From Glandiceps talaboti (Eukaryota; Hemichordata; Enteropneusta; Spengelidae): 64,000 bases of DNA. Under the pieces are notes generated by a model. That model saw only the letters and a program-made list of their open reading frames with translations, was not told the DNA's origin and ran no database searches. This document shows, one piece after another, positions 50,571 to 59,030 of the stretch. The stretch covers positions 31,861,176 to 31,925,175 of the forward strand of contig NC_135550.1 of NCBI RefSeq assembly GCF_964340395.1, read 5' to 3'. Each line of letters starts with the position of its first letter. The first letter of the stretch is position 1. The position numbers and the translations under genes are program-made.

Positions 50571-50982
50571 GATACCCGGCCCAAAATGAACCACTGTTTT
50601 CAATGCCTATACCACACGACCGGTCGTACGACCAAATTTTGGTCGTGGATAATAGTAGCATATACTAATACGAGTAATAGGGGCTACAGTAAGAAATACC
50701 CGGATGTTCGAATGATCTTGGACATAGGTCGTCTTCTTTACTCATGTTACTTATCAGGAGTTATCATGAGTATGAATCTAAGACCAGACTAAAAGTCAGA
50801 TTCACATTGGAAGAACATATGATTATGAATCAAATCTCCTAATTATGAGGCTGGAACTGGGGCTCAATATATTAGAAGAGTCTGTCTCATAAGTATCTTC
50901 AATATGTGAACATGAATCTGAATCTGAGACTAGATTTATACTCTATCTTGATAAGAACATCAGTCCTAAATTTCAGTAATAT

Positions 50983-52541
50983 TTTTTGACCGGTCGTATG
51001 GTCGTGGCAAGTATTTTTTCCAATAACTTTTCTCCCCGGTCGTATGGTCGTGACAAATATTTTTTTTCACTGTCTTTTCTCCACGACCGGTCGTATGGTC
51101 GTGGCATGTATTTTTTCCAATGACTTTTCTCCACGACCGGTCGTATGGTCGTGGCATGTATTTTTTCCAATGACTTTTCTCCACGACCGGTCGTATGGTC
51201 GTGGCATGTATTTTTTCCAATGACTTTTCTCCACGACCTGTCGTATAGTCGTGGCATGTATTTTTTCCAATGACTTTTCTCCACGACCGGTCGTATGGTC
51301 GTGGCAAGTATTTATTTTCCCTGTGTTTTCTCCACGACCGGTCGTATGGTCGTGGCATGTATTTATTTTCCCTTTGGTTTCCCCACGACCGGTCGTATGG
51401 TCGTGGCATGTATTTTTTCCAATGACTTTTCTCCACGACCGGTCGTATGGTCGTGGCATGTATTTTTTCACCATCTTTTCTCCACGACCGGTCGTATGGT
51501 CGTGGCAAGTATTTTTTCCAATAACTTTTCTCCCCGGTCGTATGGTCGTGAGAAATATTTTTTTTCACTATCTTTTCTCCACGACTGGTCGTATGGTCGT
51601 GGCATGTATTTTTTCCAATGAATTTTCTCCACGACCGGTCGTATGGTCGTGGCATGTATTTTTTCACCATCTTTTCTCCACGACCGGTCGTATGGTCGTG
51701 GCAAGTATTTTTTCCAATGACTTTTCTCCACGACCGGTCGTATGGTCGTGGCATGTATTTTTTCCAATGACTTTTCTCCACGACTGGTCGTATGGTCGTG
51801 GCATGTATTTTTTCACGATCTTTTCTCCACGACCGGTCGTATGGTCGTGGCATGTGTTTTTTCACCATCTTTTCTCCACGACCGGTCGTATGGTCGTGGC
51901 ATGTATTTTTCCACCATCTCTCCACGACCGGTCGTATGGTCGTGGCGTGTATTTTTTCCAATGACTTTTCTCCACGACCGGTCGTATGGTCGTGGCATGT
52001 GTTTTTTCACCATCTTTTCTCCACGACCGGTCGTATGGTCGTGGCATGTATTTTTTCCAATGACTTTTCTCCACGACCGGTCGTATGGTCGTGGCATGTA
52101 TTTTTCCACCATCTCTCCACGACCGGTCGTATGGTCGTGGCATGTATTTTTTCCAATGACTTTTCTCCACGACCGGTCGTATGGTCGTGGCATGTGTTTT
52201 TTCACCATCTTTTCTCCACGACCGGTCGTATGGTCGTGGCATGTATTTTTTCCAATGACTTTTCTCCACGACCGGTCGTATGGTCGTGGCATGTGTTTTT
52301 TCACCATCTTTTCTCCACGACCGGTCGTATGGTCGTGGCATGTATTTTTTCCAATGACTTTTCTCCACGACCGGTCGTATGGTCGTGGCATGTATTTTTT
52401 CGCCATCTTTTCTCCACGACCGGTCGTATGGTCGTGGCATGTATTATTTCACCGTCTTTTCTCCACGACCGGTCGTATGGTCGTGGCATGTATTTTTTCC
52501 AATGACTTTTCTCCACGACCGGTCGTATGGTCGTGGCATCC
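50983..52541 (+). repeat. Left arm array: ~31 units of a 49-50 bp palindrome repeat
   Basis: Each unit contains CCACGACCGGTCGTATGGTC followed by GTGGCATGTATTTTTTCC or a variant. Period 50 at 51121-51170. In 51920-52400 two unit types alternate (..TATTTTTTCCAATGAC and ..TGTTTTTTCACCATC), a higher-order ~99-bp repeat. The right edge runs into CATTTTGGGCC at about 52541-52551, the inverse of the element's terminal GGCCCAAAATG, hinting at a once separate, shorter element. Open frames over the array on both strands are artefacts. Confidence 0.97.
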
Positions 52542-52551
52542 ATTTTGGGCC

Positions 52552-57292: not shown

Positions 57293-57664
57293 TAAGATCA
57301 TAATGGTTAACTTAGCTTTCTAATTTCTAACTTAAAAACTTTAGATTTAGATTTAGACACTTCTAATTTATCTATCTAAACTTCTAGCTAAACTTTCTAA
57401 ACTGGCTAATACACAATACCGCACCTTGCTGCAGTATACTTAACATTTTAGAAGCGTCATGTCATCTCATCGTGGACGTATACAGAATCAAAAATATAAA
57501 TTAGATCAAAGGCAAATTAACATTTTAAGATACACAAATATTTGCATATTAAAAGGAATCGTGAAAAACCACATCACGTATTCAAAAATGGTATTTAAAA
57601 CTGGGGGCTACGATCGTACAAAGGTCGTGGGGGAAAGAGTGCAAAAATATTTCTTCATCACTGT
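57293..57664. other. Foldback element loop, right junction
   Basis: TTTAGATTTAGA-type simple sequence followed by unique sequence. A single divergent arm-like motif (CTACGATCGTACAAAGGTCGTGG, around 57608) precedes the right array. No gene supported. Confidence 0.5.
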
Positions 57665-58822
57665 CCCATGGTCGTGGAAAAAAGACAGTAAAGAAATACA
57701 TACCACGACCATACGACCGGTCGTGGAGAAAAGACAGTGAAAAAATACATGCCACGACCATACGACCGGTCGTAGAGAAAACTCATTGGAAAAAATACAT
57801 ACCACGACCATACGACCGGTCGTGGAGAAAAGACAGTGAAAAAATACATGCCACGACCATACGACCGGTCGTGGAGAAAAGATGGTGAAAAAACACATGC
57901 CACGACCATACGACCGGTCGTGGAGAAAAGTCATTGGAAAAAATACATGCCACGACCATACGACCGGTCGTGGAGAAAAGATGGTGAAAAAACACATGCC
58001 ACGACCATACGACCGGTCGTGGAGAAAAGATGGTGAAAAAACACATGCCACGACCATACGACCGGTCGTGGAGAAAAGTCATTGGAAAAAATACATGCCA
58101 CGACCATACGACCGGTCGTGGAGAAAAGATGGTGAAAAAACACATGCCACGACCATACGACCGGTCGTGGAGAAAAGTCATTGGAAAAAATACATGCCAC
58201 GACCATACGACCGGTCGTGGAGAAAAGATGGTGAAAATACACATGCCACGACCATACGACCGGTCGTGGAGAAAAGTCATTGGAAAAAATACATGCCACG
58301 ACCATACGACCGGTCGTGGAGAAAAGATGGTGAAAAAACACATGCCACGACCATACGACCGGTCGTGGAGAAAAGATGTTGAAAAAATACATGCCACGAC
58401 CATACGACCGGTCGTGGAGAAAAGATGGTGAAAAAATACATGCCACGACCATACGACCGGTCGTGGAGAAAAGATGGTGAAAAAACACATGCCACGACCA
58501 TACGACCGGTCGTGGAGAAAAGATGGTGAAAAAATACATGCCACGACCATACGACAGGTCGTGGAGAAAATTCATTGGAAAAAATACATGCCACGACCAT
58601 ACGACCGGTCGTGGAGAAAATTCATTGGAAAAAGTACATGCCACGACCATACGACCGGTCGTGGAGAAAATTCATTGGAAAAAATACATGCCACGACCAT
58701 ACGACCGGTCGTGGAGAAAATTCATTGGAAAAAATACATGCCACGACCATACGACCGGTCGTGGAGAAAAGACAGTGATAAAATACATACCACGAACAAC
58801 ATACGACCGGTCGTGGAGAAGA
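57665..58822 (-). repeat. Right arm array: ~23 units, inverted relative to the left arm
   Basis: Same 49-50 bp unit in the opposite orientation (CATGCCACGACCATACGACC then GGTCGTGGAGAAAAGATGG or AAAGTCATTGG). The same two variants (AAGATGGTGAAAAA and AAGTCATTGGAAAAA) alternate, mirroring the left arm, while the outer part is enriched in an AAATTCATTGG variant. Shorter than the left arm by about 8 units. Confidence 0.97.
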
Positions 58823-59030
58823 TAGAATAAATTTATTGTTTATTGTCCGAGGTCAAACGAACATCCGGGTATTTATTACTATAGCCCTGTGTATTATATG
58901 ATACTAAACATCCACGACCGAAATTTGGTCGTACGACCGGTCGTGTAGCGTAGGCATTGAAAACAGTGGTTCATTTTGGGCCGCATATGGTCCTAGCAAC
59001 GTTACAATATTCATTTAAATTTGCACTCAC

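Follow-up and report, generated by a model that had tools for sequence, protein, structure and literature searches.

A young, non-autonomous foldback transposon family with regular palindromic arrays in the genome of Glandiceps talaboti

By combining repeat analysis of a single element with a genome-wide survey of its relatives, we find that a stretch of 64,000 nucleotides from the hemichordate Glandiceps talaboti (here called the window) carries a member of a young, real and non-autonomous foldback family, which is of a known kind and has regular palindromic arrays as its mark. The account we favour, and consider probable, is that of a non-autonomous foldback cut-and-paste DNA transposon that is mobilised in trans and whose arrays represent multiplied putative binding sites. 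Foldback elements are known to cause inversions, and both the growth and the role of their repetitive arms are still unsettled. Copies of this family with an identical unique loop and unequal arrays lie on different contigs, so that array change could be traced to single jumps, while the palindromic half-site unit provides a short, exact target for testing arms as multiplied transposase-binding sites. We found no description of this family in the open-licence literature, and the main text of the paper on two hemichordate genomes does not use the word foldback (PMC11175523).

The whole element spans window positions 50571-58989 (8.4 kb; 8419 bp), and the 8-mer GTCCTAGC flanks it directly on either side (left target-site duplication at 50563..50570, right at 58990..58997), so that both the coordinates and the 8-bp duplication given by the initial annotation are exact. 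Its left end, GATACCCGGCCCAAAATG, begins at 50571 and its right end, CATTTTGGGCCGCATATG, finishes at 58989. The inverted ends that the annotation had placed near CGGCCC are present, but the element reaches 6 bp beyond that motif and the outermost six bases differ by side (GATACC on the left, CATATG on the right); from the seventh base inward the two ends are mutually inverted, if imperfectly, at ~84% over 148 bp. The left terminal segment (50571..50987, plus strand), whose positions 7-154 are those that match the right end, begins with GATACCCGGCCCAAAATGAACCACTG and includes a cluster of four ACGACC/GGTCGT half-sites (50616..50646, plus strand), while the right terminal segment (58821..58989, minus strand) contains a corresponding cluster of four (58914..58944, minus strand). 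Counted from the respective end, the half-sites lie at identical distances in both, namely +46, +52, +58 and +71, and the cluster spans +46 to +76. Between these segments follow the left palindrome array (50988..52546, plus strand), with ~31 units of 49-50 bp and the majority unit core CCACGACCGGTCGTATGGTCGTGG; a unique loop (52547..55220); a second, AT-rich array with periods of 34, 82 and 116 bp (55221..57290); an inner loop segment between the AT array and the right arm (57291..57669), which measures 370-381 bp in ten copies; and the right palindrome array (57670..58820, minus strand), with ~23 units running opposite to those of the left array. The AT-rich array has 26% GC and ranges from 516 to 2628 bp across nine measurable copies. 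The unique loop, described in the annotation as non-coding, matched nothing in Pfam when translated in all six frames (E up to 1); it is common, in whole or in part, to 11 copies, with 0-1.33% substitutions.

Two features place the family among foldback elements, namely long inverted arms of tandem repeats around a loop and scattered copies that have constant boundaries together with target-site duplications. In the 590-Mb assembly (47 contigs), the 19-bp core GGCCCAAAATGAACCACTG has 56 exact matches, some of them inside other repeats, against 0 for a reversed-pattern control. A 201-bp query from the left end gave at least 42 matches with 40 of 109 candidates scored, and a 166-bp query from the right end at least 40 with 40 of 108 candidates scored. 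Both ends were present at 15 of 26 fetched loci, giving 16 two-ended copies including the window copy; one of these, L031, has different outer bases and unequal flanks and was excluded from the boundary and duplication counts. The other 15 two-ended copies, distributed over nine contigs, agree in their boundaries except for point changes: the start GATACCCGGCCCAAAATGAACCACTG is common to them, with point changes in L017 and L024, and they have GATACC and CATATG as outer bases, the first base of L017 excepted. Perfect 8-bp duplications flank nine of these 15 copies, each with a distinct 8-mer. The L024 duplication matches at 7 of 8 positions, L017 has a 7-mer common to both flanks at a one-base offset and is alone in being readable as a 7-bp duplication, and the flanks are unequal in L011, L014, L015 and L022. 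The fixed boundaries on which the annotation's foldback element depended are thus borne out in 15 copies, with L031 as the exception. At the remaining 11 fetched loci only one end could be recognised or the structure was divergent or truncated; in seven loci fetched for missing ends (L035-L041) the core was absent at up to 4 errors, and core patterns gave no match in a collection of viral contigs that may not include this genome. Long inverted arrays are difficult to assemble, but an assembly artefact, or a chance pairing of inverted satellite arrays, is extremely improbable here, being contradicted by boundaries shared among 15 copies on nine contigs and by nine distinct perfect duplications.

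The arrays, for which ~31 and ~23 inverted units had been counted, were recovered as 31.6 tandem copies of 50 bp on the left and 23.2 of 49 bp on the right, mutually inverted. Perfect ACGACCGGTCGT palindromes number 50 in the element, 27 in its left half and 23 in its right half, with one of each half sitting in the terminal segment; there are none in the remaining 55,581 window bases and none in any of 200 sequences simulated for the element with a first-order Markov model. The hexamer ACGACC, which the annotation had correctly singled out as repeated in both orientations, occurs 169 times in either orientation versus a simulated mean of 4.3 and a maximum of 10, and the richest copy of the family carries 211 such half-sites. 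Among 538 near-palindromes counted, 26 lie distant from any near-perfect palindrome and are look-alikes. The prediction that the arms can fold locally finds partial agreement in single-strand folding: two array units (z -4.5) and the AT array (z -3.1) fold better than shuffles, and neither terminal segment does so (z -1.1 and +0.25).

Each unit core contains three ACGACC half-sites. Because the core thereby shares half-sites with both ends, and by the nearest experimental parallel, the Galileo transposase, whose THAP domain protects +63 to +80 and has two further binding sites among the tandem repeats of its arm (PMC3688188), our analysis suggests that the arrays are amplified versions of a candidate transposase-binding cluster located near the ends. 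We propose that a transposase encoded elsewhere would mobilise the element in trans, recognising the outer ~38 bp together with the ACGACC cluster at +46 to +76; that the arrays, as multiplied copies of this cluster, would act as secondary binding sites; and that the repeated arms may exchange between copies, yielding chimeric copies and one likely 8.5-kb inversion. The repeated transposase-binding sites posited in the annotation are possible: the four matching half-site positions of the two ends favour them, and the units themselves do so only moderately, the core being only moderately more uniform than the spacer. To measure core variation independently of the core, we used 490 units that had been cut by the spacer alone, with the core not required. 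The 27-nt majority core is exact in 335 of the 490 and has at most one change in 436, and 24 core positions vary by 0.2-10%, while part of the spacer varies by 42-58%. This spacer variation comes largely from few unit types offset by one base, and constraint on the core is therefore only moderately supported; the uniformity of the units could also come from homogenisation.

The same transposon may carry its arrays as a passive by-product of slippage, gap repair or unequal exchange, with no binding role, a possibility that we take seriously even though we lean against it. Differences of more than 1 kb between the arrays of copies with no unique-loop substitutions, together with block duplications and losses in the strings of unit types, are what such a by-product would look like, and the spacer, too, exists in few types, so that the uniformity of the core may reflect homogenisation; moreover, the right end of L024 has no half-sites. 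It is less easily reconciled with a core that repeats the half-sites set at fixed distances in both ends, or with the smaller number of distinct cores (28) than of distinct spacers (42) in the 490 units.

The pace of array change can be read from three closely related copies. In the 2.67-kb unique loop there are 0 substitutions among the window copy (contig C2), L011 (C14) and L017 (C9), the other, non-zero pairs in the family differing by 0.15-1.33%. Relative to L011 or L017, the window copy has one 3-base gap in the loop, 2 differences per 416-417 bases in the left end (not counting the first base of L017), 1 in 370 bases in the inner segment and 0 in 169 in the right end. The right module is constant at 1329 bp in all three, whereas total length is 8419 bp in the window copy, 6972 bp in L011 and 9282 bp in L017, with left modules of 1976, 2080 and 2720 bp and AT arrays of 2070, 516 and 2186 bp, respectively. 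Arrays thus vary by up to 1.7 kb among copies that are nearly identical elsewhere, and since array length varies while bases barely do, the arrays change much faster than the bases. The strings of unit types show blocks duplicated and lost; a run of seven unit types, for example, is present once in the window copy and twice in L017. We conclude that the transposon has been recently active in this genome. A more speculative extension, which we rate as improbable, is that every jump rewrites the arrays through gap repair or hairpin processing, gaining or losing blocks of units, which would renew putative binding sites and perhaps titrate transposase and thereby restrain the element's own activity, and that the arms would invert neighbouring DNA.

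Several copies are much reduced. L018 (638 bp) and L021 (338 bp), both with perfect duplications, L024 (240 bp) and the 1981-bp L015 have kept both termini and have no loop, and the three shortest of these (240-638 bp) resemble MITEs. Elsewhere, two core motifs face each other ~100 bp apart at C12:5823306 and C12:5823404, possibly a very small derivative. Exchange between copies is suggested by L014 and L015, two oppositely oriented copies separated by 8.5 kb in the 14.910-14.927 Mb segment of C8. On its left, L015 has the same 8-mer that L014 has on its right (GATAAATA), which is the sole exact cross-match in 291 flank pairs, where 0.004 would be expected, and the other two flanks agree at 7 of 8 positions after a one-base shift. 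Judged from these flanking bases, this is likely the trace expected if two oppositely oriented copies recombined and inverted an 8.5-kb stretch; an assembly error at the locus is a possible alternative source of the exchanged flanks. Twelve chimeric Galileo copies likewise carry unequal flanks (PMC3573991). The flanks of L021 and L024 also agree at 7 of 8 positions, but with 0.11 pairs expected at 7 or more we take this agreement as chance.

To find a source of transposase, we located transposase genes by Pfam family and took their distances to 110 listed end-like places, a partial list that includes core fragments of another repeat. All 41 hAT matches (PF05699) are more than 50 kb from any listed end-like place, the nearest being 52 kb away, and the single KDZ match (PF18758) lies ~203 kb from the nearest. 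Among 13 P-type matches (PF21787), none was seen between element ends and one lies within 10 kb, at a distance of 5.9 kb and outside an end-like place that is a core fragment of another repeat; the autonomous P- or hAT-type partner that the annotation had suggested looking for was not found near the listed end-like places. Two P-type matches, C14:24546894-24547337 and C19:16472492-16472935, have equal scores and a 751-aa open frame each, and possibly mark a recently active P-like element. Two of 31 MULE matches (PF10551) have a listed end-like place within 5 kb, where ~0.12 would be expected within 10 kb, and in the short pieces read neither gene was seen between two such ends. At C2:5723662, an end-like block stops after ACGACCGG and its inner part resumes 4.5 kb further along, just past the MULE domain, in the two short stretches of 120 and 400 bases that were read; the C12 gene is broken and lies 1.1 kb outside an end-like block. 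We rejected proximity alone as grounds for a MULE engine, the C12 gene lying outside its block and the C2 gene seeming to interrupt one. An end look-alike at the start of L042, also rejected, is probably coding sequence of the broken C12 MULE, a 184-aa piece of which has relatives at 39-51% identity, the best from a coral. For L012, which has a left end only, a six-frame scan of 8 kb matched nothing in Pfam at E up to 0.1. No DNA transposase was among ten open frames taken from L012, L026 and L029-L034: four have matches above the cut-off (RVT_1, NHL, ALKBH8_N and Ion_trans_2), two have matches below it only and four have none.

Which superfamily would supply the transposase can be weighed against known foldback systems. 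TU elements of sea urchins share the foldback plan and have 8-bp duplications. Galileo of Drosophila, a foldback-like member of the P superfamily, resembles the present family, by description, in its long inverted repeats and the internal tandem repeats of some subfamilies (PMC3688188), and in its very variable arm length, chimeric copies and link to inversions (PMC3688188, PMC3573991). It differs in having 7-bp duplications, few repeats per arm and a P-type transposase in some copies, whereas here the duplications are not 7 but 8 bp in 9 of 15 copies, the window copy has ~54 units and no transposase was found. Tm1, a Mutator/Phantom foldback of Meloidogyne, is described as having asymmetric terminal motifs outside the inverted repeat, a trait that our ends share but that is not proof, as well as variable internal-repeat number and MITE-like derivatives; its duplications, however, are mostly 9 bp, its repeat is ~14 bp and a transposase-bearing member is known (PMC3169594). 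Tetris of Drosophila virilis is, in the account cited, likewise non-autonomous, with a non-coding middle, tandem repeats in the arms and an autonomous copy not found, but it has TIR-220 repeats and duplications of 8-10 bp, and its authors suggest Mutator (PMC4079207).

Membership of the P superfamily, in a Galileo-like form, or of hAT is a tentative possibility. Regular 8-bp duplications suit both better than they suit a MULE, but the ends do not resemble the known termini of hAT or P elements. For P in particular, Galileo offers the precedent of THAP-domain sites both close to the terminus and within the repeated units of its long arms (PMC3688188), and P-type genes exist in this genome, including the equal-scoring pair with 751-aa frames; against both stand the gene distances, with no hAT match within 50 kb and the lone nearby P match outside another repeat's fragment. 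A place in the Mutator/MULE superfamily, as a Tm1- or Phantom-like foldback, seems to us rather unlikely. It would account for the asymmetric terminal bases outside the inverted repeat, which are reported for Tm1 and other MULEs (PMC3169594), and for the excess of MULE genes near end-like places; yet one of those genes sits inside an interrupted block and the other outside, neither between two ends in the short pieces read, and all nine exact duplications are 8 bp where those of Tm1 are mostly 9 (PMC3169594).

The survey also brought up other repeats and neighbours. A different repeat, identical over 190 bp at C16:4988047-4988236 (L046) and C20:6393806-6393995 (L047), holds ~56 bp of the right-end core as the variant CACTCTTTTC, which at least 29 places bear with one mismatch. 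An older composite occurs at L034:163-1246, L030:8341-9354 and L042:1227-1701 and in L044; in it a right-end-like block is enclosed by a common flank reaching ~330 bp and, in L030, L032 and L034, a common segment reaching ~600 bp, the latter being present outside the left-type ends of L023, L025 and L026 as well. Within the window itself, positions 45903-49637 (minus strand) hold an uninterrupted open frame of 1244 aa with ABC transporter domains, whose best named match is an ABCC4-like protein of Ptychodera flava at 45% identity, other named matches reaching at most 35% (7991 candidates scored). Parts of an FHA domain lie in two adjoining open frames at 35251-36772 (plus strand), 28.9 tandem copies of a 47-bp unit, at 94%, occupy 40384-41738, and a 1.8-kb AGTAG array at 5088-6885, with 100% matches, is open in several frames.
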